Positions 20,115 to 35,092 of a DNA stretch of 37,631 nt are shown here, piece by piece (position 1 is the first letter of the stretch; the number at the start of each line of letters is the position of its first letter). The DNA is taken from positions 1-37,631 of the forward strand of contig CALXVV010000003.1 in NCBI GenBank assembly GCA_944392205.1. Reading direction: 5' to 3'. A program made the position numbers and the translations under genes. Under the pieces are notes generated by a model. The model did not search any database and was not told the origin of the DNA. It saw only the letters and a list, made by a program, of their open reading frames with translations. This DNA comes from an uncultured Alphaproteobacteria bacterium (lineage in GTDB: Bacteria; Pseudomonadota; Alphaproteobacteria; RF32; CAG-239).

Positions 20115-21359
20115 TTAATTTTCGATTCGCAAGGAGTTTCCCGCCAGCTTAAAATTATATTTTTTCCATTTTTGCTCCAACAACGGACGATTTTTCTGAA
20201 CCTCGACCACATCAGCAAGCGGGGCATTATAAGCAGAAACAATGGCTTGCATGGTTGCATAGCGAAAAGCCTGAGACTTTGGACTCAGTTTATTGATTTC
20301 ATCATCATAGAGGCCCAACTTATAAGCACGAATAGCCTGCATCAAAGAAGAACTGATTCGCGACAAACGATAGGCCTTCACGGTCTTATCACAAGTATAG
20401 GCCCACTCATTGAGCGTAAACCCCTCGCCGGCCACTTTTCGAGCCAATTCTAACTCTTGGCCCATAAGACGAGCCTTTTGCACCAACCTTGCACAAGGAT
20501 TAACACCTTCACGCAAACCGGCGACAATGGCCGGATTTTTATCAAATTCATAACTCCACAACATAGAAGATATTCGGCTCAACTGATAGCGATTATCCCC
20601 TGTCTGATACCAATCTTCCACCGCATCAATCGTGCGGGCAAACGCTTGAATATCCGCCGATGTCAGCAAAGAATCAGGTGTAGGTTTAATGGTACGTAGC
20701 TGGCTGCGCCCGGGCTTTTGAGGAAGAGCGTTGGGCATAAAGTCCTCAGGCGGCACCAATTTCTTGAGCGCGGCAAAGAATTTAGGATCATAGACCACTT
20801 TGGGATGATAAGGGGTCATCTGCGGACGCTCGATTTTTCTGGCATTTTCCGGCCACATTTCAGGCATAAGGATATAGTACAAAAACGGAGACAAAAACTC
20901 AATATCTTCTATATCTTTCAGCTGTGGTGCGATTCGCTTGGGGAACTGATGTTTTGTTTCCTTGATTCCGGGCATATTCAAAACTTTTTCCGACATATTT
21001 GGAATTTCAAACAGCATCGGTCCGATGTAGGGATACATTTCCTTAGGCAAAGCCTTCAGAATTTCCAAGGTATACTCCTCTTCTTCCCACTTAAGGCGCT
21101 TTTCATTAATCCCATAGGTCGCCGCACGCGCATAAAAATCAGGGTCAAATTCGCCGGTCAGCTCCCAAAAGCTATGATATTTTTTATCATAATATCGGTT
21201 TTCACGATTAAAAATCTCCTCCAACTCCGTCAGCGGCGGCAAAGTATCTTCCTCAAGATTAATCTCAAAATCCTGCTTATAGTCGGCCATAGCGGCATTG
21301 GCAGATTTTCCGCCCCCAAGCGCGCAAAAGAATAAAACAGCCATAAGAAGTTTATACAT
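20115..21359 (-). CDS. Exported protein of unknown function
   Basis: A 414-residue protein with a clear signal peptide (MYKLLMAVLFFCALGGGKSANA, likely cleavage after ANA). I recognise no domain. The N-terminal half is acidic and rich in Pro, Tyr and Glu (NLEEDTLPPLTELEEIFNRENRYYDKKYHSFWELTGEFDPDFYARAATYG). The C-terminal half (about 230-405) looks helical, with a repeated SRISS motif (QLSRISSMLW, YRLSRISSSLM) and two Cys. It starts immediately after the stop of the DUF4139 gene (TAAATG), with no clear ribosome-binding site of its own, so it is probably translated by coupling and may act with that protein in the periplasm. No function is proposed. Confidence 0.8.
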   Translation of the reverse strand: MYKLLMAVLFFCALGGGKSANAAMADYKQDFEINLEEDTLPPLTELEEIFNRENRYYDKKYHSFWELTGEFDPDFYARAATYGINEKRLKWEEEEYTLEILKALPKEMYPYIGPMLFEIPNMSEKVLNMPGIKETKHQFPKRIAPQLKDIEDIEFLSPFLYYILMPEMWPENARKIERPQMTPYHPKVVYDPKFFAALKKLVPPEDFMPNALPQKPGRSQLRTIKPTPDSLLTSADIQAFARTIDAVEDWYQTGDNRYQLSRISSMLWSYEFDKNPAIVAGLREGVNPCARLVQKARLMGQELELARKVAGEGFTLNEWAYTCDKTVKAYRLSRISSSLMQAIRAYKLGLYDDEINKLSPKSQAFRYATMQAIVSAYNAPLADVVEVQKNRPLLEQKWKKYNFKLAGNSLRIEN

Positions 21360-23533: not shown

Positions 23534-24127
23534 TTAGTAAAAATTTCTCTGTATATAGCGGTGAACCGTCAACCACGAGCAACCAAAACTTCTGGCGATT
23601 TCAGCCTTCTTCACATTTTTTTCCACTAGGAGTTTGAGCTGCTCATGGTTTTCCAGAAGTATCTGATAAGAGGTGCCATAAGGCCGTCCGAGATGCCTTC
23701 CCTCGTCTTTAAGACGCTGGAGGGAATTTTTAGTTCGTTCAGAAATAAGCTGTCGTTCAATTTCGCTAGCCAACCCAAAGGCAAAAGCCAACACTTTAGA
23801 TTGAATATCAGCCCCCAGGCGATAATTTTCTTTCAAGGTCCAAATTTGGCAATCTTTTTCCAGGCATTTTTGCAAGATTCCCATGACTTCGAGCAAATTT
23901 CGCCCTAATCTAGACAACTCTGTGGCGATCAATATATCATTTTTCTGCAGTTTTCGCAGTACTTTTCCCAATTGCCTTTTGTGCAAAGGTTTTCTAGAGG
24001 AAATAACTTCCTCGATCCACTTATCGATACAAAATCCTTTGTTTTTAGAAAACACCTCAATTTCGTGATGTTGATTAGCAGTGTTCTGGTGGTCGGTACT
24101 GACTCTAACGTATCCATAAATCATCAT
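23534..24127 (-). CDS. Serine recombinase, DNA-invertase type
   Basis: Site-specific recombinase of the resolvase/invertase family, 197 residues, the size of simple invertases such as Hin or the Bacteroides Mpi. The catalytic domain has Ser10 in YGYVRVST. Arg73 and Arg76 lie in ELSRLGRN, matching the active-site arginines of gamma-delta resolvase. The dimerisation helix contains EIERQLISERTKNSLQRLKDEGRHLGRPYGT. A C-terminal helix-turn-helix follows (KKAEIARSFGCSWLTVHRYIQRNFY). It therefore looks active. AAGGA precedes two adjacent ATGs (24127 and 24124). Its start lies beside a pair of perfect 22-bp inverted repeats bounding a promoter segment, so it is probably the invertase acting on that segment. 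That link is inferred from position. Confidence 0.92.
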   Translation of the reverse strand: MMIYGYVRVSTDHQNTANQHHEIEVFSKNKGFCIDKWIEEVISSRKPLHKRQLGKVLRKLQKNDILIATELSRLGRNLLEVMGILQKCLEKDCQIWTLKENYRLGADIQSKVLAFAFGLASEIERQLISERTKNSLQRLKDEGRHLGRPYGTSYQILLENHEQLKLLVEKNVKKAEIARSFGCSWLTVHRYIQRNFY

Positions 24128-24128
24128 A

Positions 24129-24167
24129 AGTCCTTATAAATATTTTGTTAAACAATAAACAAGGACT
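24129..24167 (-). promoter_or_regulatory. Hairpin covering the invertase ribosome-binding site
   Basis: In the minus-strand mRNA, AGTCCTT (complement of 24161-24167) can pair with AAGGACT (complement of 24129-24135), which contains the AAGGA Shine-Dalgarno of the invertase; an inner TTGTT/AACAA pairing would reinforce it. This could keep translation low in long transcripts starting inside the invertible segment. Fold drawn by eye. Confidence 0.4.
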
Positions 24168-24205
24168 AATAAAGAAGAAAAAACGACCATTAACAATAAA
24201 CGATG

Positions 24206-24359
24206 TTCAAAAATCACCGTTTTTGTACCAATGCTGCCACTATAAACTAAAAGTTTTTTTCGTCAACAGCAAAATGATTAAAGGTGTAAATAAATATAGC
24301 GTTAGAAAGAAAATGTGTATCTTTGTGTATCGTTATCTACAAAAACGGTGATTTTTGAA
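24206..24359. repeat. Invertible promoter element (inverton) with 22-bp inverted repeats
   Basis: Left repeat 24206-24227 and right repeat 24338-24359 are perfect 22-bp reverse complements bounding 110 bp. Each repeat has arms TTCAAAAA and TTTTTGTA (near-palindromic, one mismatch) around the asymmetric core TCACCG, the architecture of a serine-recombinase crossover site with a non-palindromic central AC. Inverted orientation of two such sites gives inversion. The enclosed DNA has no gene but carries one promoter-like element. It sits between a serine recombinase and a paralogue that heads a glycan operon. A simple terminator is unlikely given the 110-bp loop. Inversion itself has not been observed. 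Confidence 0.85.
24239..24266 (-). promoter_or_regulatory. Sigma70-like promoter inside the invertible segment
   Basis: On the minus strand TTGACG (24261-24266) and TATAGT (24239-24244) are separated by 16 bp. It is the best promoter match I found between the two recombinase genes. As sequenced it reads toward the invertase, with a leader of about 105 nt. Inverted, it would read into the plus-strand operon, with a leader of about 40 nt before the ATG at 24375. No comparable plus-strand promoter is visible in the segment. Confidence 0.65.
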
Positions 24360-24374
24360 GATATGAGATAAGCT

Positions 24375-24965
24375 ATGTTTATTGGTTATATAAAAAATAG
24401 CGAAGACAAGGCGGAACAATTACGAGAACACAAGGAGATTCAAGATTTTGCTCAAAAAGCTGGGCTTGACCTCAGCTGTGTTTACTCGGATTCCTCCTTT
24501 GCCAATATCAAAGAAGTCATTTTACCCACCTGCCAAGGTCTTATTATTTGCAGCATAAGCAGCTTAGGAGCCTCTCTATCAGAGATAAAAGAAAATTTAT
24601 TTTTTTGCCGCCAGAAAGATTTTGATATTTTCTCCATTGAAGACGGCTACAAACTTAATTCTGAGATATTAACCCCTGATTTTTTCAAGGGCATAGACTT
24701 AGCCATCAATATTCGCAGTGATCTCATATCCCAAAACACAAAGAAGATATTGCAACGCCGCAAGAACGAGGGTGTCAAGCTTGGCCGTCCCTTGGGCTCA
24801 AGAGTAAAGGAGCGCCTTGAGGGCAAAGAGACAGAGATCAGACGTCTTTTATCGCAAAAGGTCTCCAAAGCAGAGATTGCTCGTCGTTTTAATGTAACCC
24901 GCGTGACGGTATTCAACTTCATCAAGAAGCGCGGTCTTGAAAATGAAGAGCTCGCCCATGCCTAA
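24375..24965 (+). CDS. Degenerate serine recombinase paralogue, probable regulator
   Basis: The 196-residue protein aligns with the neighbouring invertase along its length, but its active site is eroded. GYVRVST is GYIKNSE (Ser9 kept, Arg8 replaced by Lys7). SRLGRN is SSLGAS, so both active-site arginines are lost (Ser63, Ala66). The helix-E pattern ERQLISERTK has become RSDLISQNTK. The hinge LQRRKNEGVKLGRPLGS and the C-terminal helix-turn-helix (KAEIARRFNVTRVTVFNFIKKRG) are preserved. It is therefore probably a DNA-binding protein that cannot recombine. It starts 15 bp after the right inverted repeat and is the first gene of the glycan operon, 42 nt before the next gene. It may modulate inversion or operon transcription; role inferred. 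Confidence 0.85.
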   Translation: MFIGYIKNSEDKAEQLREHKEIQDFAQKAGLDLSCVYSDSSFANIKEVILPTCQGLIICSISSLGASLSEIKENLFFCRQKDFDIFSIEDGYKLNSEILTPDFFKGIDLAINIRSDLISQNTKKILQRRKNEGVKLGRPLGSRVKERLEGKETEIRRLLSQKVSKAEIARRFNVTRVTVFNFIKKRGLENEELAHA

Positions 24966-25007: not shown

Positions 25008-25973
25008 ATGAAAACAATAGTAGTAACAGGAGGAACGGGTTTTTTAGGTTCCAATTTATGTATCCGCCTAATAAATGAGGGCAATCGCATCATATGTGTT
25101 GATAACAACTACACCGGACGTATGCAAAACGTGGCTGAGATTATAAATAATCCGAATTTTCGTTTTATTAAGCACGATATCTGTGAACCTTTAGATGTTA
25201 ATGATGAAAAAATAGACCAGATTTACAATATGGCCTGCCCGGCATCTCCTCCGGCCTATCAGGGAAATTATTCAATAAAGACGACCAAGACTTGCGTATT
25301 TGGTGCAATTAATATGCTTGAATTGGCCAAGAAGCATAGTGCCACCATCTTGCAAACTTCCACCTCTGAAGTTTACGGAGAACCGCTTGTTCACCCGCAA
25401 GTAGAAACTTATCGCGGCAATGTCAATCCCATCGGAATTCGTGCTTGCTATGATGAAGGCAAGCGTTGTGCTGAAAGTTTATTTTTTGACTATCATCGTC
25501 ATGAAGGAGTTGATATTAAGGTTATCCGTATTTTCAACACCTATGGCCCCAAGATGGATCCCAACGATGGCCGTGTAGTTTCCAACTTCATTTGCCAAGC
25601 ATTAAGTGGACAAGATATCACCATTTATGGCGACGGCTCACAAACGCGCTCATTTTGCTATGTTGATGACTTAATTGAGGCCATGATTCGTATGATGAAT
25701 TCAGAAAAAGGCTTCACTGGTCCGGTCAACACAGGCAATCCCGGAGAGTTTACCATCAAAGAATTAGCAGAGAAGGTTACCGCTAAGATTGGAGGAAGCT
25801 CAAAGATTGTCTATAAAGATTTGCCCAAAGACGACCCCACCCAAAGGCGTCCGGATATTACCTTAGCAAGAACTAAACTTGGCTGGGAACCAAAGGTTAA
25901 GTTAGATGAAGGCCTAGACAAAACAATAGAATATTTCAAGACCCAAATAAATTTATTTAAGAAAGCGGAGTAG
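25008..25973 (+). CDS. uxs: UDP-glucuronate decarboxylase (UDP-xylose synthase)
   Basis: NAD-dependent short-chain dehydrogenase-type enzyme converting UDP-glucuronate to UDP-xylose. The 321-residue protein has [10 protein letters not shown] (residues 8-17) for NAD binding. UXS-specific features are [13 protein letters not shown], the TSTSEVYG strand (117-124) and the catalytic pair Tyr148/Lys152 in [11 protein letters not shown], then [22 protein letters not shown] and [21 protein letters not shown] precedes the ATG. The next gene, starting 3 nt after the stop, makes its substrate, so the two form a pathway pair. dTDP-glucose dehydratase is the main alternative but lacks these motifs. Confidence 0.93.
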
Positions 25974-25976
25974 AAA

Positions 25977-27344
25977 ATGAAAGTAGGAATTATCGGAACC
26001 GGTTATGTAGGCTTGCCAACCGGCGTAGGCTTGGCAGAATTAGGCAATCAGGTAACCTGTATTGACCGCGAACCGAGCAAAATAGACGCGCTAAAGGCTG
26101 GCAAGATAACATTGTATGAAGACGGACTGGAAGATCTGTTTCACAAGAATGTAGAAGCGGGACGCCTGCATTTTACCACCTCGATGAAGGAAGGCGTTAC
26201 GGATGCTGACTTGGTTATCATTGCGGTTGGCACTCCGCCCCACCCAATAACCAAAGAAGCAGATATGAAGTATATTCATGCGGCAGCAACCGAACTGGCA
26301 GATTACCTAACCGGCTACACGGTGATTGCCACCAAATCAACTGTTCCGGTCGGAACCGGCGATGATGTAGAGGCTTTAATTTCCAAGAAAAATCCGTTTG
26401 CCAACTTTGATGTTGTATCATTGCCCGAGTTTCTGCGCGAAGGTTTTGCGGTGCACGACTTTTTCCACCCCGATAGAATTGTTGTCGGCGCCAATACCGA
26501 AAAAGCCAAGAACGTAATCAAAGAGCTTTATAAACCATTTGCAAACAAGACCAACATGCTGTTTGTCAAACGCCGTTCATCTGAGACCATAAAATACGCC
26601 TCCAATGCCTTTTTGGCCATTAAGATTCATTATATTAATGAGATGGCCAATTTCTGCGAAAAGACGGGAGCCGATATTTATGAGGTTGCCCAAGGCATGG
26701 GGCTAGACAGCCGCATCGGTCCAAAATTTTTGAATCCCGGTCCTGGCTACGGCGGAAGTTGTTTTCCCAAAGATACGATGGCAATGTCCTATATGGCGCG
26801 CCAAAATGGTGTTGAGATGACTTTGATCAATGCGGCCATTGTTGGTAATAGCAATCGTAAAAAACAAATGGCCGAGCGGATATTAAACGCGGTTAAAGAT
26901 ATCGAAAAACCCAAGATTGCGGTTTTAGGTCTGGCATTTAAGGATGGTACTGATGACTGCCGAGAAAGCCCGGCGATGGAAATTGTCGGTGAATTAATCA
27001 GCAGAGGTGCCGACATTACGGCCTATGACCCCAAGGCTATGGGCACGGCCTGCAGACTGGTAGGCAACAAGATAGGCTATGCCGACAATATGTACCAAGC
27101 CCTGCAAGGAGCTGATGTCCTGGCGATATTGACCGAATGGAACGAGTTTAGAGACCTCGACCTAGGCAAAGCCGCCGGGTTCATGCGTCACAAAAAGATT
27201 GTTGACTGCCGCAACTTGCTGGACGGAGAGAAGGCAAGACACGCGGGCTTTGACTACCAAGGAATTGGTCGGCCTGAGGTAAAAAGCCAAGAATCCACAA
27301 TCAACAATATCCTAAAAATTAGGGATCAATATCGTAATCGATAA
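25977..27344 (+). CDS. ugd: UDP-glucose 6-dehydrogenase
   Basis: Oxidises UDP-glucose to UDP-glucuronate with two NAD. The 455-residue protein has the Rossmann motif GIIGTGYVGLPTGVGLAELG at its start, AVGTPPHP and KSTVPVGTGD, then the central helix ETIKYASNAFLAIKIHYINEMANFCE. The catalytic Cys262 lies in GPGYGGSCFPKD. The C-terminal UDP-binding domain includes VLGLAFKDGTDDCRESPA and ADVLAILTEWNEFR. Everything needed for activity is present. It follows uxs with a 3-nt gap and feeds it UDP-glucuronate. Confidence 0.95.
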   Translation: MKVGIIGTGYVGLPTGVGLAELGNQVTCIDREPSKIDALKAGKITLYEDGLEDLFHKNVEAGRLHFTTSMKEGVTDADLVIIAVGTPPHPITKEADMKYIHAAATELADYLTGYTVIATKSTVPVGTGDDVEALISKKNPFANFDVVSLPEFLREGFAVHDFFHPDRIVVGANTEKAKNVIKELYKPFANKTNMLFVKRRSSETIKYASNAFLAIKIHYINEMANFCEKTGADIYEVAQGMGLDSRIGPKFLNPGPGYGGSCFPKDTMAMSYMARQNGVEMTLINAAIVGNSNRKKQMAERILNAVKDIEKPKIAVLGLAFKDGTDDCRESPAMEIVGELISRGADITAYDPKAMGTACRLVGNKIGYADNMYQALQGADVLAILTEWNEFRDLDLGKAAGFMRHKKIVDCRNLLDGEKARHAGFDYQGIGRPEVKSQESTINNILKIRDQYRNR

Positions 27345-27361
27345 GAATAAAGGGGCAGTTT

Positions 27362-28330
27362 ATGATTCTCGTCATGGGCGGAGCCGGCTACATAGGCTCA
27401 CATACAGTAAAGCACTTGCTGGATAATGGCTACCAGGTAGTTGTTGCCGATAATCTGATTTATGGCCACCGAGAGGCGGTTGATGAGCGTGCGATTTTTG
27501 AACACGCAGACTTGCTGGATACTTATTCTTTGCAACAAGTGTTTAACAAGCACAAGATTGACGCAGTTATCCATTTTGCGGCTTTTGCCTATGTTGGAGA
27601 AAGCGTCGGCGAGCCGCAAAAATATTACTATAACAATGTTGTCGGCACAATAAATTTGCTTAATGCAATGCTAGCACATGGGGTCAAGGATATTGTGTTC
27701 TCCAGCACTTGCGCAACTTATGGTGAGCCGCAATATACCCCGATAGATGAGCAACACCCGCAAAATCCGATTAATCCTTATGGCCGCACCAAATTGATGA
27801 TTGAGCAAATTTTTGCCGATTACGAGCGGGCTTATGGTTTACGCCATATTGCCCTGCGGTATTTTAATGCCGCCGGATGTTCGGCAGATGGGAGTATTGG
27901 TGAAAGCCATACGCCGGAAACGCATTTGATACCACTGGTTTTGAAAGCCATAAGCGGCGAAAGAAAATCAATCAGTGTTTTTGGCACAGATTATGACACG
28001 CCGGACGGAACCTGTATCCGCGACTATATACATGTAGAAGATTTGGCTTTGGCACACCGCTTGGCGGTTGAAAAGCTGAGTGACTACAGCGGTTGTATAA
28101 ATCTTGGCACCGGAATTGGTACGAGTGTAAAAGAAATCATAGCTGCCGCCGAAGAGGTCAGCGGCAAGAAATGTCCGGTCGAATATGGCGCTCGCCGTGC
28201 GGGAGATCCAGCTCGTTTGTTTGCCGACAATCATAAAGCCAAAGAGATTTTAGGCTGGAAGCCAAAATATACCAACATCAAAGACATCATCCAAACCGCA
28301 TGGAATTGGGAAATCAACCGGAGATTTTAA
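27362..28330 (+). CDS. galE: UDP-glucose 4-epimerase
   Basis: Interconverts UDP-glucose and UDP-galactose. The 322-residue protein has GGAGYIGSHTVKHLLDNGYQVVVADNL (NAD binding), HFAAFAYVGESV, FSSTCATYGEP and the catalytic Tyr140/Lys144 in NPYGRTKLMIEQI. ALRYFNAAGC and GTCIRDYIHVEDLALAH are GalE-specific. The length is typical. It supplies UDP-galactose (or an amino-sugar counterpart) for the glycosyltransferases downstream. 17 nt separate it from ugd. It is the last gene with host-like base composition before the AT-rich stretch. Confidence 0.93.
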   Translation: MILVMGGAGYIGSHTVKHLLDNGYQVVVADNLIYGHREAVDERAIFEHADLLDTYSLQQVFNKHKIDAVIHFAAFAYVGESVGEPQKYYYNNVVGTINLLNAMLAHGVKDIVFSSTCATYGEPQYTPIDEQHPQNPINPYGRTKLMIEQIFADYERAYGLRHIALRYFNAAGCSADGSIGESHTPETHLIPLVLKAISGERKSISVFGTDYDTPDGTCIRDYIHVEDLALAHRLAVEKLSDYSGCINLGTGIGTSVKEIIAAAEEVSGKKCPVEYGARRAGDPARLFADNHKAKEILGWKPKYTNIKDIIQTAWNWEINRRF

Positions 28331-28334
28331 AAAA

Positions 28335-29435
28335 ATGGTAACAGAGCTATACCCTACATTTAAGAAAAATAATATTGCTGTCGTTTTTTCAATTACAGAC
28401 AATTATGTACCTATTTTTGGAACCTGTTTACAATCATTAATAAACAATAGTAGCCCACGCAATAACTACGATATTTATGTTTTTTCCGAAAATATTTCAG
28501 AAAACAATCAAATGCGATTAAAATTGATGTGTTCTCAAAAAAATTTTTCACTAAGATTTATAGATATAAAGCCATATCTGTCAAAATATCCTAGAAGCGA
28601 TTTTTATTTATCTGAACATATAACCATAGCCACTTACTATCGTTTCTTTATTCCTTCTGTATTTAAAAATTTTGATAAAGTTATTTATTCTGATAGCGAT
28701 GTTATTTATGAAAATGATGTTGCTCTTTTATATAAACAAAACATAAGAAATTACATTATTGGAGCGGCTTTGTCTGGCTGGCAGTATGCCATGAATGACA
28801 AATTTAAGCATTATGCGCTTGATATATTAAAAATGACAGATGCAACCCAATATATTCAGGGGGGAATTCTTTTATGCAATATTAAGAGAATGATAGCATA
28901 TGATTTTACAAATAAATGTATAAAAGCTCTGAAAAGAATAAAGACACCAAAAACATGGGATCAATGTATAATTAACAGTGTTTGCAACGGACAAATATAT
29001 TTTTTAGATCGGAAATGGAATGTGGAGTGGCATTATCCATTTTGTCATCCCAATTATGAACAAAAAGTTTCTCAAAGAATATATGATGATTATTTAGAAG
29101 CCAGAGCCAAACCTAACATTGTACACTATGCATCAGCAATAAAACCGTGGAATGCTCCTGAAAGAGATTTAGCATCAAATTTTTGGAAATATGCAAGAGT
29201 TTCGCCTTTTTATGAAGAAATATTGGAGATTTTGCTAGCCTCCAAAATGCCGAAAGATCCAGACTTAAAACAAATTAAAGAGATTGCAAATTTGGGAAAA
29301 TTAAAAATCAATTATTTGAGATATAAACTTCTTTCATTTCTTACAATTGGTAAAAAACGCAGAAAATATTGTGAAAAGAAAAAATCGACTAAAACGCGTA
29401 TCAAAAATATCAAAAAATTTTTAAGGACTCTTTAG
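28335..29435 (+). CDS. Glycosyltransferase family 8 protein
   Basis: Predicted retaining sugar transferase. The 366-residue protein has the GT8 fold signature: IAVVFSITDNYVPIFGTCLQSLINNSS at the N-terminus, ITIATYYRFFIPSVFKNFDKVIYSDSDVIYENDVALLY with the metal-binding DSD, YIQGGILLCNIKRM, KTWDQCIINSVCNGQIYFLDRKWNVEW and a final IVHYASAIKPWNAP (the GT8 H-x-x-G/S-x-x-K-P-W region). The C-terminal tail is Lys-rich. GGAG lies about 11 nt before the ATG. Base composition is visibly more AT-rich than galE. It is paralogous to the first half of the next gene. Acceptor and donor unknown. Confidence 0.9.
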   Translation: MVTELYPTFKKNNIAVVFSITDNYVPIFGTCLQSLINNSSPRNNYDIYVFSENISENNQMRLKLMCSQKNFSLRFIDIKPYLSKYPRSDFYLSEHITIATYYRFFIPSVFKNFDKVIYSDSDVIYENDVALLYKQNIRNYIIGAALSGWQYAMNDKFKHYALDILKMTDATQYIQGGILLCNIKRMIAYDFTNKCIKALKRIKTPKTWDQCIINSVCNGQIYFLDRKWNVEWHYPFCHPNYEQKVSQRIYDDYLEARAKPNIVHYASAIKPWNAPERDLASNFWKYARVSPFYEEILEILLASKMPKDPDLKQIKEIANLGKLKINYLRYKLLSFLTIGKKRRKYCEKKKSTKTRIKNIKKFLRTL

Positions 29436-31517
29436 ATGGCTAAATCTTTGTTACCAGCTTTTTCGAACAATAATATTCCAATTGCATTTGCTGTAACAAA
29501 TAACTATGTGCAGTATTTTGGAGTATGTTTATGGTCTATAATATCCAATAGTTCATCCAAAAATCGGTATGATATTGTTGTATTAGAAAGCGATATTTCG
29601 TTTGAAAATAAGGAACGTTTGAAGAAAATTTTGCCCCCAAATTTTTCCATTAGATATATTGATATGAACCAATACATGGCTAATCTTGACAAAAGCCAAT
29701 TTTATATCTCTGGGCACATTACATTAGCAACATATTATCGTTTTTTTATTCCCCAGATTTTTAACAATTATGAAAAAATAATTTATCTAGACTCTGACTT
29801 AGTCGTAACACACGATATTGCCGATTTGTTTTCAACAAATATCAAAAATTATGTCCTTGCGGCGGCCACAGATACAGCAATGTGTGCATTTTTAAAAGCA
29901 CGCAATAATTATCTAGAGTACGCTAAGAATGTAATGCGATTACCTTCCCCGTACTATTGTTTCAATGCTGGCGTCTTAGTTTGCAATATTTCTAAAATGA
30001 ATCAAGTAAATTTTACAAATAAGTGCATTGAACGTTTAAATGAAATAAAAAAAACTTGGTCTTGGGATCAAGACATTCTTAACTCATTGTATGCAAAGGA
30101 TTATCTTCTATTAGATCAGTCATGGAATGTTCAATGGCATACAAGCTTTGACAAACATTTATTAGAATGTCTGCCCCCAACATTACGAACGACCTATCAT
30201 GACGCTTGTCAACATCCTAAAATCATACACTACACATCAAGTTTAAAAGCATGGAACAGTAAAGATAAATATTTAGCCCAATATTTTTGGAAATATGCAA
30301 GAACTTCTATATTTTATGAGGAAATATTATATAGTAACATTGATACGCCAAGCGTACCTTCTGGATTTAAATCAGATACAAAAAGAACCTGCTCCAATAA
30401 ACTTAAAAAAACTTTATGTTCAAGATTGAAACAATCCATTTTATCTTTAGTTAACTTGTTAAACTTCTATATTTATCACAAGGAAAATCTAAATGATATA
30501 TCCGTTATAAAGTGTTTTGGAATCCCTATTTATAAAAAAGACAAGTATACAACTTTCGTATTTGGTATCAAAATATATAAAAACTACAAACAAGAACTTA
30601 ACTTATTAAAAAAACAAAATAAGCAATTAAAATTTTCTTTTGAAGAATTCCAAGAAGACACAAAAAATTATATAGAAGAGCTGAAATCTCGTATTGTAAA
30701 ACGCCCCTTGGAGCAAAGAAGTTTAATTAATATTTTCTGTACATACCATTACCAAGACGGATATCCTCTGTTTCAATCAGATATTTACATTCCCATTCAA
30801 ACCGGTGCCGCAAATTCTGATGTGGATTTTGGAATTCTGAAAGATAATGATGGAGATAATATTTCCGAAAAGAATGACTTTTTTGCGGAATTAACTGCCA
30901 CGTATTGGGTCTGGAAGAATTGGCTGACGACTCATCCAAATGTTGAATATATAGGAGCTGCACATCACTACAATCATTTGGATTTGCCACGTATACACCC
31001 ACTACAACGCCAAGGAGTTTCAATTTATAAATTAGGTCTAGATAAATTTGTCAAAGAATTTTCTGTATATGATTTAGAGCATATAGACCTTGAGCCATAT
31101 GATATTATTCTACCAAAAAAAATAAAATATGGGCAGATTAATCAGACCTTATTCAGCCAATATTGTGAATGCCACCCTCAAGAACAATATATAGAATTTG
31201 AAAAAATAGTTGAAAAACATCATCCTAAATGTAAACCGCTTCTGCCCAAACTACGAAATTTAACAGAATTCTATTTGGGAAATTCTTACGTTATGAGAAG
31301 AAACTTATTTGATGACTATTGTCAGTGGTTATTTCCCATGCTATTTGAACTAGAGAACCAGACAAACTGTTTTGAAAAATATAATAATTATGTTTCTAAA
31401 AAGCGCAGAATTCCACCGTTTTTATCAGAAAGGTTCATTAATCTTTGGTTAATGGAAAAACAAATGGACACAAAACTTAAAATAGGAGAACGCACATGGA
31501 TGAGCATAATCTTATAA
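29436..31517 (+). CDS. Two-domain glycosyltransferase: GT8 fused to DUF4422
   Basis: A 693-residue protein. Residues 1 to about 300 form a GT8 domain closely resembling the previous gene product: IPIAFAVTNNYVQYFGVCLWSIISNSS, IIYLDSDLVVTHDIADLF with the DSD motif, WDQDILNSLYAKDYLLLDQSWNVQW and IIHYTSSLKAWNS. A linker with a coiled-coil-like stretch (about 385-415) follows. A C-terminal DUF4422 domain spans about 425-690, with IFCTYHYQDGYPLFQSDIYIPIQTGAA, DNDGDNISEKNDFFAELTATYWVWKNW and IGAAHHYNHL. DUF4422 proteins are found in capsule and LPS loci and are thought to be glycosyltransferases. The start abuts the stop of the previous gene; the end overlaps the next gene by 22 nt. Probably adds two sugars in sequence (inference). 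Confidence 0.88.
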   Translation: MAKSLLPAFSNNNIPIAFAVTNNYVQYFGVCLWSIISNSSSKNRYDIVVLESDISFENKERLKKILPPNFSIRYIDMNQYMANLDKSQFYISGHITLATYYRFFIPQIFNNYEKIIYLDSDLVVTHDIADLFSTNIKNYVLAAATDTAMCAFLKARNNYLEYAKNVMRLPSPYYCFNAGVLVCNISKMNQVNFTNKCIERLNEIKKTWSWDQDILNSLYAKDYLLLDQSWNVQWHTSFDKHLLECLPPTLRTTYHDACQHPKIIHYTSSLKAWNSKDKYLAQYFWKYARTSIFYEEILYSNIDTPSVPSGFKSDTKRTCSNKLKKTLCSRLKQSILSLVNLLNFYIYHKENLNDISVIKCFGIPIYKKDKYTTFVFGIKIYKNYKQELNLLKKQNKQLKFSFEEFQEDTKNYIEELKSRIVKRPLEQRSLINIFCTYHYQDGYPLFQSDIYIPIQTGAANSDVDFGILKDNDGDNISEKNDFFAELTATYWVWKNWLTTHPNVEYIGAAHHYNHLDLPRIHPLQRQGVSIYKLGLDKFVKEFSVYDLEHIDLEPYDIILPKKIKYGQINQTLFSQYCECHPQEQYIEFEKIVEKHHPKCKPLLPKLRNLTEFYLGNSYVMRRNLFDDYCQWLFPMLFELENQTNCFEKYNNYVSKKRRIPPFLSERFINLWLMEKQMDTKLKIGERTWMSIIL

Positions 31518-32536
31518 AATCCAGCTACAAAATATTAGCTATCATTCCAGCTCGCTCTGGTTCTAAAAGTGTTCCTAATAAAAACATCCGATTAATAAAT
31601 AAAAAACCGATGCTAGCATACTCAATAGAACATGCTCGAGCATCTAAATATATTAATAGAATCATTTTAAGTACTGATTCAAAAGAGTATGCTGAAATTG
31701 GAAAAAAATATGGAGCAGAGATTCCTTTTATTCGTCCATCTCAATACGCTACAGACACAGCCTTAGATATAGATGTTTTTTACCACGCACTAAACTACCT
31801 TCAAGAAAAAGAAAATTATATCGCAGATATAGTAGTCCATTTACGCCCTACATATCCTTGGAGACATGTAGAAGATATTGATAATATGATTGAAATTATG
31901 CTTAGGGATTTTACCATAGATTCCGTACGTAGTATAGCCCCTTCAAAAGAAAACCCCTTTAAAATGTGGACAATGTCTGATGATGGAAAGTTACACCCAA
32001 TATCCAACACCATACCTGAGTGTTATAATTCTCCCAGACAGTCATTACCCCAAACATACTACCAAAACGCCTGCATTGATATAATCAGAGGATCCACGAT
32101 ATTAGAAAAAAAATCTATGACAGGAAAGAATATACACGGATATCTAATGTCAAATAATCTAGATATAGATACAGAAGATGATTTAGCTCTTACGGCGCAG
32201 CTTATTAATACAGTATCTGGCCATCAAACGTTTTGTATAGATATTGACGGTGTTATAGCTATTACGCCTGACACAAGTGATTACAATAAAAGTAGCCCTA
32301 ATTTTGATAATATACAAAAAATTAACAAGCTGTACAGATATGGAAATAAGATAATACTATTTACTGCTCGTGGCAGCGCCACAGGAAAAGACTGGTTTTC
32401 ACTTACCCAACAACAGATGAAAGATTGGGGGGTTATGTATCATGAACTAAAAATGGGAAAACCCGCTGCTAATTTCTATTTAGATGACCACGCACTAACA
32501 TTAAACAACTTCATACAAATTTTTAACTACATTTAA
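31496..32536 (+). CDS. CMP-nonulosonate synthetase fused to a HAD phosphatase
   Basis: Residues 1 to about 238 are a cytidylyltransferase of the NeuA type: ILAIIPARSGSKSVPNKNIRLINKKPMLAYSIEHA (nucleotide-binding loop), then LRPTYPWRHVEDIDNMIEIM, QTYYQNACIDIIR and NLDIDTEDDLALTAQLI. Residues about 244-346 are a HAD-like domain with all four motifs: Asp249/Asp251 in FCIDIDGVI, Thr290 in LFTARG, Lys322 in GKPAANFYLDD and the acidic pair 330-331. A plausible role is activation of a nonulosonic acid with CTP, with the HAD half removing a phosphate from the precursor. AGGAG precedes the ATG, and the gene overlaps the previous one by 22 nt. It is followed by the NeuB-like synthase. Exact sugar unknown. 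Confidence 0.87.
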   Translation: MDEHNLIKSSYKILAIIPARSGSKSVPNKNIRLINKKPMLAYSIEHARASKYINRIILSTDSKEYAEIGKKYGAEIPFIRPSQYATDTALDIDVFYHALNYLQEKENYIADIVVHLRPTYPWRHVEDIDNMIEIMLRDFTIDSVRSIAPSKENPFKMWTMSDDGKLHPISNTIPECYNSPRQSLPQTYYQNACIDIIRGSTILEKKSMTGKNIHGYLMSNNLDIDTEDDLALTAQLINTVSGHQTFCIDIDGVIAITPDTSDYNKSSPNFDNIQKINKLYRYGNKIILFTARGSATGKDWFSLTQQQMKDWGVMYHELKMGKPAANFYLDDHALTLNNFIQIFNYI

Positions 32537-32549
32537 GAGGAGAAAAAAT

Positions 32550-34034
32550 ATGAGTATTTTTGACGATTTAATTATTTTTGAAATGGCAAATTCGCACCAA
32601 GGAAATGTGGAGCACGGTATAAAGATAATCAAAGCAATGGGAAAAATTGCAAAAAAATATAATGCAAAGTGCGCAGTAAAATTGCAATACAGAGATCTTG
32701 ATACATTTATTCATCCACAGTTTGTGAACAAAAAAGATGTTCCCCATGTTGAACGCTTCCTAAGCACCAGATTAAATAGTAAACAATTCAACATACTTGT
32801 AGAAACCATTCGGGACGAAGGAATGATTGCGATGAGCACTCCCTTTGATGAAAAATCTGTAGATTTGTGCCTATCCCAAAATCTAGATATCATCAAAGTT
32901 GCTTCTTGTAGCGCTCTAGATTGGCCTTTATTGGAAAAAATATCAAAGACACAAAAACCAATAATTATTTCTACCGGAGGGTTATCAATAAAAGACATAG
33001 ATAAAATATACAGTTTCTTTAACCACCGAAAATGTGAATTTGCTTTAATGCATTGTGTAGCGATTTATCCAGCTCCTGAAAATCTACTTCAACTAGATAT
33101 TCTAAGAAAAATGCAAAAAAGATATCCTAACGTTGTAATTGGATATTCAGGTCATGAGGCTCCGACTAATACAATTATCCCCTCAATGGCAATTGCGGAA
33201 GGCGCAAAAATAATGGAACGTCACGTAGGGTTGCCCACTGATACTATCAAGTTAAATGCCTATTCTATGTCCCCTGAACAAGCTGATGCATGGGTAAAAA
33301 CAATCATATCCGCCCGCGAAATATGTACATTTAACAAAGACAGGAATGTAACACCTTCAGAAATCAATTCTCTTCATTCATTAATGAGAGGCGTGTATGC
33401 ACAAAGAGACATTAAAGAAGGAGAAGTAATTTCGGAAAAAGATGTTTTCTTTGCAATGCCAGTACAAGATGGACAAATTACAAGCGGAGAATTTAAATCT
33501 GGACAGAAAGCCAGCCACGAATACAAAGCATTCTCTCCTATCAAAGAAACTATTGAAAAGGATGAAATCCAATTACTTAGAGAAAGTCTACATGAAGCCA
33601 AGGGTATGTTAAATGAAGCAGGACTAATCTTCGGAGAAGAATTTACCGTAGAAATATCACATCACTATGGCATACCTAATTTCAGAACAACAGGATGTAT
33701 TATCGTTAATATTATGAATAGAGAATACTGTAAAAAACTAATTATCGTACTTCCTAACCAAAACCACCCAATACACTATCATTTGAAAAAAGAAGAAACA
33801 TTCCAAGTGCTTTATGGCGATTTAGAACTAACACTTAATGATGTAAAAACGACAATGCATATTGGCGAAGTTGCAACGGTGAAAAGGGGTGATCGGCATG
33901 GATTTTCTTCTAAAAATGGCGCTATATTTGAAGAAATATCAACGACTCATTATAGAGATGATTCCTTTTATGAAGACGAAACTATTGCTAAACAAGATCC
34001 CATGCAACGTAAATCTTTTCTAGAAGGATGGTGA
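32550..34034 (+). CDS. NeuB-like nonulosonate synthase with SAF and cupin domains
   Basis: The N-terminal NeuB barrel (about residues 1-270) would condense phosphoenolpyruvate with an amino-hexose. It shows FEMANSHQGNVEHGIKII, KLQYRDLDTFIHPQ, STPFDEKSVDLC, IIKVASCSALDWPLLEKI, IISTGGLSIKDID and GYSGHE...AKIMERHVGL. A SAF/antifreeze-like domain (about 285-345) has SLMRGVYAQRDIKEGEVISEKDVFFAMPV. The last about 120 residues form a cupin (HPIHYHLKKEETFQVLYGDLELTL, ending in RGDRHGFSSKNGAIFEEISTTHY) that could bind a metal or sugar. At 494 residues it is much longer than plain NeuB (about 345). It is paired with the CMP-sugar synthetase 13 nt upstream. No NeuC-type epimerase is present here, so precursor and product (sialic, legionaminic, pseudaminic or other) cannot be told. 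Confidence 0.88.
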   Translation: MSIFDDLIIFEMANSHQGNVEHGIKIIKAMGKIAKKYNAKCAVKLQYRDLDTFIHPQFVNKKDVPHVERFLSTRLNSKQFNILVETIRDEGMIAMSTPFDEKSVDLCLSQNLDIIKVASCSALDWPLLEKISKTQKPIIISTGGLSIKDIDKIYSFFNHRKCEFALMHCVAIYPAPENLLQLDILRKMQKRYPNVVIGYSGHEAPTNTIIPSMAIAEGAKIMERHVGLPTDTIKLNAYSMSPEQADAWVKTIISAREICTFNKDRNVTPSEINSLHSLMRGVYAQRDIKEGEVISEKDVFFAMPVQDGQITSGEFKSGQKASHEYKAFSPIKETIEKDEIQLLRESLHEAKGMLNEAGLIFGEEFTVEISHHYGIPNFRTTGCIIVNIMNREYCKKLIIVLPNQNHPIHYHLKKEETFQVLYGDLELTLNDVKTTMHIGEVATVKRGDRHGFSSKNGAIFEEISTTHYRDDSFYEDETIAKQDPMQRKSFLEGW

Positions 34035-34075
34035 TATTCTTTAAAGAGGTCAGAAGATTTCTCAAAGGAAAATAG

Positions 34076-35092
34076 ATGGCAAAAATATCAATCATCATAC
34101 CTTTTTATAATGCGCAAAACTACATGAAAAGGTGTTTAGATGCTATTTTGGCGCAAACATTTACTGATTTTGAAGTTATTTGTGTCGACGATGGCTCTAA
34201 AGACAATACCTATCAAATCTTGCAGGATTACGCTAAAAAAGATAAACGAATCAATGCCTACACTCAAGAAAACGGCGGCCCCTCGGCCGCCAGAAAAACG
34301 GCGCTCGTCCATGCAACCGGAAAATATTTGATGTTTTGCGATTCTGATGATTGGTATGAGCCTAATATGTGCCAAACCATGTTTGATGCAATTGAACAAA
34401 ACGATGTAGACATTGTGTGCTGCAATGCCAGGGTAATTGACGAGCAAGACAATCTCCAAAGAGTAGATGCATCGGATTATTACGCAAACAAAAAGATAGG
34501 CATATTCCCCATTGTAAATGCTATCATACAAAAGACAAATGTGCTCTTATGGAACAAAATTTGGAAAAAATCGCTGATAGAGCAATATCAAATAGACTTT
34601 CCTCCTTGCCGAGAATATGATGATGATTGCTTTTATCTGCAATACATGTCCGTAGCTCAAAAAATTATGTATATCAATGACAAATTATACAATTATTTTC
34701 GCAGACAAGATTCTGTATTTGGAAAAGTTGCCACAAAACAAGATGTTTCCTTTCTCGACAAGCTATATGTGGCAAGATATTACTTTGATTTTCTACTACA
34801 GAATAAAATTTTATCCCAAAATAAAATTACCTTTCTTCACTACCTAGTACAAATTCATAATTTTGGCAAAGATAGATGGAACCAGAACAACTGGAAGCAA
34901 GCTAAGACTCTTTTTCAGCAACTTTTTCCAAACAACCCAGATTTTGCCAATTTTATCTTCCCGCTACAAAAAAAGATATGTCATTTTATCAAGTATTACC
35001 AAATAAAAAGTATAAAAGACGACAATATTTATCAAAAATCGACTTATTCTATTGGAATTTTTCGGTTCACAAGGAAAAAATTATGCAAATAA
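34076..35092 (+). CDS. Glycosyltransferase family 2 protein
   Basis: Predicted inverting sugar transferase with a GT-A fold. The 338-residue protein starts ISIIIPFYNAQNYMKRCLDAILAQTFTDFEVICVDDGSKDNT (GT2 hallmark), followed by QENGGPSAARKTALVHATGKYLMFCDSDDWYEPNM with the metal-binding DSD. REYDDDCFYLQYMSVAQKIMYINDKLYNYFRR resembles the GT2 domain of capsule and O-antigen loci. It has no membrane segments. AAAGGAAA precedes the ATG. It is the last gene of the operon; a terminator begins 18 nt after its stop. Sugar and acceptor unknown. Confidence 0.9.
   Translation: MAKISIIIPFYNAQNYMKRCLDAILAQTFTDFEVICVDDGSKDNTYQILQDYAKKDKRINAYTQENGGPSAARKTALVHATGKYLMFCDSDDWYEPNMCQTMFDAIEQNDVDIVCCNARVIDEQDNLQRVDASDYYANKKIGIFPIVNAIIQKTNVLLWNKIWKKSLIEQYQIDFPPCREYDDDCFYLQYMSVAQKIMYINDKLYNYFRRQDSVFGKVATKQDVSFLDKLYVARYYFDFLLQNKILSQNKITFLHYLVQIHNFGKDRWNQNNWKQAKTLFQQLFPNNPDFANFIFPLQKKICHFIKYYQIKSIKDDNIYQKSTYSIGIFRFTRKKLCK

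Follow-up and report, generated by a model that had tools for sequence, protein, structure and literature searches.

Serine invertases are among the best-studied enzymes of phase variation, and the Mpi-family serine invertases of Bacteroides flip the promoters of polysaccharide operons. In resolvases, some subunits are bound at accessory sites, where they play a structural role. UpxY is a NusG-like antiterminator. As described in PMC7315117, UpxZ represses non-adjacent capsule loci via UpxY, and the genes for these proteins start the capsule operons of Bacteroides.

The locus considered here lies in a stretch of 37,631 nucleotides (hereafter designated the window), which makes up the entire contig C3 of an uncultured alphaproteobacterium's draft genome (1.38 Mb; completeness, 93%). 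It encodes an intact Mpi-like invertase and, divergently from it, an apparently degenerate homologue (hereafter designated psi).

Organization of the locus

The following features were assigned.

24375–24965, plus strand: psi, a probably dead Mpi-family serine recombinase homologue (196 aa), gene 1 of the glycan operon
23534–24127, minus strand: intact Mpi-like DNA invertase, the divergent partner of psi (Pfam Resolvase, NCBIfam, catalytic residues)
24206–24227, plus strand: left inverted repeat, a putative invertase site (22/22 match to the right arm)
24338–24359, minus strand: right inverted repeat, ending 15 bp 5' of the psi start codon
24228–24337, no strand assigned: putative invertible spacer of 110 bp with the promoter (alignment to the paralogous locus on contig C9)
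24239–24266, minus strand: sigma-70-like promoter TTGACG-N16-TATAGT, facing the invertase and away from psi (OFF for the glycan operon)
25008–35092, plus strand: glycan operon 3' of psi (eight genes with glycan-related Pfam domains)

The first-pass annotation of this DNA had put psi at the head of a glycan operon, which agrees with the gene order: no more than 50 bp separate psi from the next gene, and the eight genes encode, according to Pfam, an epimerase, a UDP-sugar dehydrogenase, another epimerase, GT8, GT8-DUF4422, CTP_transf_3, NeuB, and GT2 proteins. It had also held that psi is produced only in the ON state, and the placement would indeed let just one promoter orientation transcribe psi. 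The promoter itself matches the consensus at 10 of 12 positions, a call that is weak on its own because two sites were found and shuffled sequences yield a mean of 2.0. Elsewhere in the window, GcrA is encoded upstream (Pfam), which, together with related metagenome-assembled genomes of Alphaproteobacteria, one of them from sheep colon, places the genome among the gut-associated members of this class. A 414-aa open reading frame (20118–21359, minus strand) that matches nothing in Pfam at E 1e-4 adjoins the gene for a DUF4139 protein.

Loss of catalytic residues and retention of the fold

Psi shares 32% identity with its divergent neighbor. The Pfam Resolvase scores are 22 bits for psi (cut-off, 23.3) and 105 bits for the neighbor, and HTH_7 of psi is above its cut-off. 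The best NCBIfam family for both proteins is the Mpi-family serine recombinase (NF009949), with 106.8 bits for psi and 258.6 bits for the neighbor, the former far below and the latter just under the cut-off of 272. In the numbering of the intact neighbor, psi carries the substitutions R7 to K (YVRVS to YIKNS), R50 to S, R72 to S and R75 to A (SRLGR to SSLGA), E121 to N, E123 to R, R124 to S, and R130 to N. Thus, the losses reported at first pass, those of both active-site arginines (SRLGRN to SSLGAS), the YxRxS arginine, and the ER motif of helix E, all appear as changes in the alignment with the neighbor, and the hinge (LGRP.G) and helix-turn-helix (HTH) said to be kept are retained. An eight-residue loop deletion immediately N-terminal to R50 had been overlooked, and nothing had been said of S9, the nucleophile position, which is still Ser in the window psi and mostly Asn across the psi family. 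Of R7, S9, R50, R72, and R75, whose catalytic roles and resolvase numbering we take as given, the window psi retains S9 alone and the neighbor all five. These comparisons support the view that psi would be dead as an enzyme.

The AlphaFold2 model of psi, built with 12 relatives (pLDDT, 86.7; pTM, 0.59, which makes the domain placement less sure), retains the recombinase fold and the HTH and contains a long helix at residues 101–131. In a Foldseek search with this model, the best solved structures were those of serine recombinases (2r0q, 5cy1, 2gm4, and 1gdt; Sin recombinase at E 6e-7). The predicted structure thus presents psi as a homologue with the serine recombinase fold and a C-terminal resolvase-type HTH.

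Orientation of the promoter segment

Inversion is indicated by alignments between loci. Thus, at the orthologous loci L169 and L170, the segments are identical at 157 of 165 positions after reverse complementation and at 108 of 186 as they stand, and two loci of one genome, L067 and L074, gave 118/151 reversed versus 96/164 unreversed. The window spacer was also aligned with the segment upstream of a second psi gene in the same genome, giving a local score of 42 after inversion but of 14 in the assembled orientation; 500 shuffles reached 19 at most.

L078:3171–3686, on contig C9 of the window genome: the second psi gene, ending before the HTH and preceded by one repeat and by a promoter directed at it

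This copy precedes CTP_transf-like, GDP-mannose dehydratase, and RmlD genes. One repeat site is present at the C9 locus, and a second site with up to three mismatches was not found there; because of this single site, the locus looks like a former inverton locked ON. Its promoter (TTGACG...TATATT) faces the second psi, whereas the window equivalent points to the invertase, so that the window was most likely assembled in the OFF state. The window therefore shows the features of a phase-variable promoter inverton, namely, the repeats and the two orientations, the latter seen between loci (L169 and L170, the window and C9). A home-made promoter matrix applied to 30 segments called 11 of them toward and another 11 away, left 8 undecided, and was set aside; since it conflicts with the sequence orientation of L067 and L074, the claims on orientation rest on the alignments.

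Psi as a family of proteins

Relatives were drawn from the genus (35 genomes), the family (152), a sample of the class (385), and a second family, f74 (12), and a sample of the phylum comprised 398 genomes. In the genus and family searches, the higher-scoring loci were fetched, and the family-wide counts, being those of fetched loci, are lower bounds. Among the fetched loci, all five invariant residues are retained in 58 of 58 full-length intact relatives, and the 57 full-length dead ones keep none (34), one (20), two (2), or three (1) and always have the shortened loop (the eight-residue deletion beside the catalytic arginine), a split that is partly by definition because the loop column and R72 served to assign proteins to the sets. 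Intermediates between the two classes are nearly absent, the exception being L213 of family f74, in which three arginines are kept and Cys occupies the nucleophile position. Four mixed rows (L161, L162, L183, and L193) were counted as psi. The Arg of SSRKP varies among the intact proteins, unlike the invariant R50. In helix E, the region of E123, which is presumably a subunit interface, the replacement of E123 by Arg is found in 40 of the 48 psi proteins outside family f74 and is absent in the nine from f74.

A quick tree needed two changes, with a 35-row clade (family f1 and one f91 row; SH-aLRT, 93) and an f74 clade of 5 (SH-aLRT, 99), yet a single psi clade was not rejected (p-AU, 0.41), which suggests one or two origins of psi. 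Psi frames remain open in family f1 (nine genus codes), in f74, and, in one case, in f91. At E 1e-32, the 398 genomes of the phylum sample yielded nothing psi-like beyond the window genome, the one other match having an invertase-like score, and a scan of other phyla for one subfamily gave 10 loci, all titled Alphaproteobacteria or proteobacterium.

Selection was estimated from psi pairs with at least 60% identity (n = 68, 40 listed). In the 26 pairs with dS < 1 among those 40 of 68, dN/dS was 0.069–0.202, with low values for the HTH as well as for the catalytic-fold domain, and similar to that of the listed invertases; the window psi itself is in none of these pairs. A stop lies inside psi in two relatives (L171 and L175). 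The substitution rates indicate that the psi genes of relatives are under purifying selection. Sequence decay in relatives, which the first-pass annotation had named as grounds for dismissing a role of psi, was looked for; the dN/dS values argue against it, and the two stops, like the loss of the HTH from the C9 copy, speak for it. Between L074 and L061, L063, or L065, the N-terminal dN of psi is about 0.16–0.18 and the HTH dN about 0.8; with close N-terminal domains and distant HTH domains, the HTH looks swapped between psi genes. In L071 and L072, the C-terminus of psi is longer and includes a second HTH.

Genomic position of psi genes

An upstream repeat pair (pair score of at least 13 and a gap of 60–170 bp, upstream of the gene) was found for 20 of 53 psi genes versus 4 of 439 other genes of these loci used as controls (Fisher p, 8e-18), with seven further psi genes having too little upstream DNA and L171 left out by length; weaker, orthologous-looking sites at L071, L174, and L181 do not reach this threshold. 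Neighbors were counted for 62 of 63 rows (L099, a contig-truncated intact invertase, was dropped, and L171 was omitted by length): an invertase gene or fragment lies within 1.5 kb of 25 psi genes, always at 153–328 bp, and a co-directional gene starts within 120 bp downstream of 45. The pairing with an intact recombinase around inverted repeats, for which a survey had been proposed at first pass, therefore recurs. Among the first downstream genes tested, 15 of 19 have glycan-related Pfam domains (counting as such the PEP-mutase/cytidylyltransferase gene of L179), and the other four are tandem-HTH genes (L061 and L064), a gene with a weak phosphotransferase match (L173), and one without a match (L176), which is followed by NeuB. 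The cargo differs while psi stays, including GT2, RmlA-type, RgpF, PEP mutase, epimerase, DegT, and NeuB genes. Judged from these positions, the putatively dead recombinases are a recurring family, mostly heading varied glycan operons and often just behind inverted repeats.

Psi is also present without a local invertase or repeats, as in L066/L070 and the L068 group. At L068, L073, L076, L077, L079, L080, L083, and L098, there is no adjacent invertase and no co-directional downstream gene was found (contig ends truncate L080 and L098), and several of these psi genes close a cluster that contains glycan genes, lying at its 3' end. Genome G025, listed as 100% complete, has one psi and other serine recombinases, with no psi-profile match at E 1e-8 beyond that psi.

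At L179, a single invertase lies between two psi-headed operons of opposite direction, and separate inverted repeats precede each of them. Tandem-HTH proteins (Pfam) are encoded after psi or deeper in psi-headed operons at L061:5380–6375, L064:8809–9816, and L064:12900–13982, and a similar-looking protein is encoded at L063:639–1634.

Relationship of psi to the inverted repeats

The first-pass annotation had supposed that psi could bind the same 22-bp sites as the invertase. In a Mantel comparison of 16 of the 17 psi–invertase–repeat sets (L179- was left out), the repeat distance followed the HTH distance of the invertase (r = 0.77, p = 0.0002; r = 0.72 without L172), whereas its correlation with the HTH distance of psi was 0.26 (p = 0.013), 0.15 without L172 (p = 0.069), and 0.10 as a partial correlation given the invertase. 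The N-terminal domains of psi and invertase co-vary modestly (r = 0.29–0.39). Moreover, L071 and L072 have a psi HTH distance of 0.00, yet their repeats (TTCACAAATCACCGT and ATTTAATGTCCGTT) differ and their invertases belong to different classes; the same holds for L061 and L062, in which the psi HTH is identical and the repeats and invertases are not. Conversely, class-1 invertases pair with very different psi HTHs in the window, L062, L071, and L181. These results speak against binding to the shared sites, since the repeats follow the invertase HTH and not that of psi, although weak or accessory binding of psi at the repeats might still occur.

No cis operator of psi came to light, as no shared site above shuffles was found in the 330 bp upstream for the pairs L071/L072, L061/L062, and L061/L069. 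A palindrome 8–9 nt before the start of some class-1 invertases was also weighed as the operator of psi, but invertases with no psi neighbor (L110, L089, and L088) have it too, and it was dismissed for that reason. This palindrome (of the type CTTATAAATAGTT...AACTATTTATAAG) lies 8–13 nt 5' of the start codon of the L062, L069, L110, L089, and L173 invertases, and positions 24128–24170 of the window hold an imperfect version; it may perhaps form an RNA hairpin that damps translation of the invertase.

Discussion

The reading that we favor, with somewhat better than an even chance of being right, is that transcription of the glycan operon depends on an Mpi-type promoter inverton and that gene 1 is a duplicated dead recombinase kept as a regulator. 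The invertase would flip the promoter toward psi, which would then be co-produced with the glycan enzymes in the ON state, dimerize via the recombinase fold, and use its HTH to act on DNA outside the inversion sites. By analogy with UpxY/UpxZ, the targets of psi would most likely be glycan or surface loci elsewhere, reached in trans, the ON locus thereby signaling its state. Given the divergent layout, one promoter would feed the invertase in the OFF state and psi in the ON state; psi would then be present mainly once transcription from this promoter no longer reaches the invertase. Since evolution has kept psi in relatives, its probable role is that of a regulator produced only with the switch on. 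A regulator is favored because the HTH is under selection yet does not follow the repeats, and also because of the second HTH (L071 and L072), the tandem-HTH neighbors, and the psi genes without a local invertase or repeats; a DNA-binding role for psi is thus the favored one. Against a regulator alone, the E123 to R change and the N-terminal co-variation would also fit protein contact.

Such contact is the core of an alternative that we regard as possible, if somewhat unlikely, in which ON-state psi joins the invertase in mixed dimers or tetramers, or occupies an accessory site, so that inversion is reduced or biased and the ON state stabilized. The narrow spacing between psi and its intact partner invertases, the charge swap in helix E of 40 of the 48 psi proteins at what is presumably a subunit interface, and the correlated N-terminal distances of psi and partner agree with such a brake, but the psi HTH does not track the repeats, the charge swap is missing in the nine f74 proteins, several loci keep psi without a local invertase or repeats, and no close invertase homologue was found in G025. 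That psi homodimers block the invertase on the 22-bp repeats, as first proposed, appears very unlikely: shared ancestry and the retained hinge and HTH would suit it, as would L067 and L074 of genome G023, where the psi HTH is by eye closer to the class-1 invertase type, but the Mantel and partial correlations, the pairs with the same psi HTH beside different repeats and invertases (L071/L072 and L061/L062), and the very different psi HTHs accompanying class-1 invertases point the other way. Even less credible, indeed scarcely plausible, is that psi is a functionless, decaying duplicate travelling with the switch. The stops in L171 and L175 and the HTH-less second copy in the window genome would be expected of a relic, but it is largely refuted by the low dN/dS in both domains among the pairs listed and by frames that stay open across nine f1 genus codes, f74, and once in f91; the case for decay fails on these dN/dS values.

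The favored regulator and the brake may be combined in a more speculative picture, which we consider unlikely, in which the switch would regulate itself with a dead copy of its enzyme: mixed oligomers of invertase and psi, the latter produced in the ON state alone, formed via the helix-E swap would hold the coat ON, the HTH would tie psi to other glycan loci, and the arrangement would have arisen once or twice in Alphaproteobacteria and recur across genera. If psi reports or stabilizes the ON state, it would add feedback to switches usually viewed as memoryless coin flips, and it may show how several glycan loci of one genome can be coordinated without UpxY/UpxZ. Loci that share a psi HTH but differ in their repeats offer natural controls for binding and inversion assays.

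The first-pass annotation knew of no well-described case of such a role. The literature on inactive recombinase paralogues in phase variation likewise yielded none, including PMC11868660, in a search reaching few subscription journals and preprints. As far as these searches reach, the locus combines a known type of inverton with a conserved dead-enzyme partner that is undescribed. The Mpi family (NF009949) is the best family for both psi and its neighbor, and psi differs from it in its score (107 versus 272 bits), the loss of catalytic residues, and its alphaproteobacterial lineage. With the gamma-delta, Tn3, and Sin resolvases and Hin, psi shares the fold (Foldseek); however, one active protein does both jobs there, and a separate dead gene product is present here. 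Like UpxY/UpxZ, psi is encoded by the first gene of a capsule-type operon. Unlike them, it is a recombinase-fold HTH protein of an unrelated family, its profile matches (Pfam, NCBIfam, and PHROGs) being to recombinase, HTH/DNA-binding, or unknown-function families and not to UpxY or UpxZ, and cross-regulation by psi is an analogy. Collectively, UpxY/UpxZ may be regarded as the closest functional analogue of psi, sharing its position and perhaps its logic.
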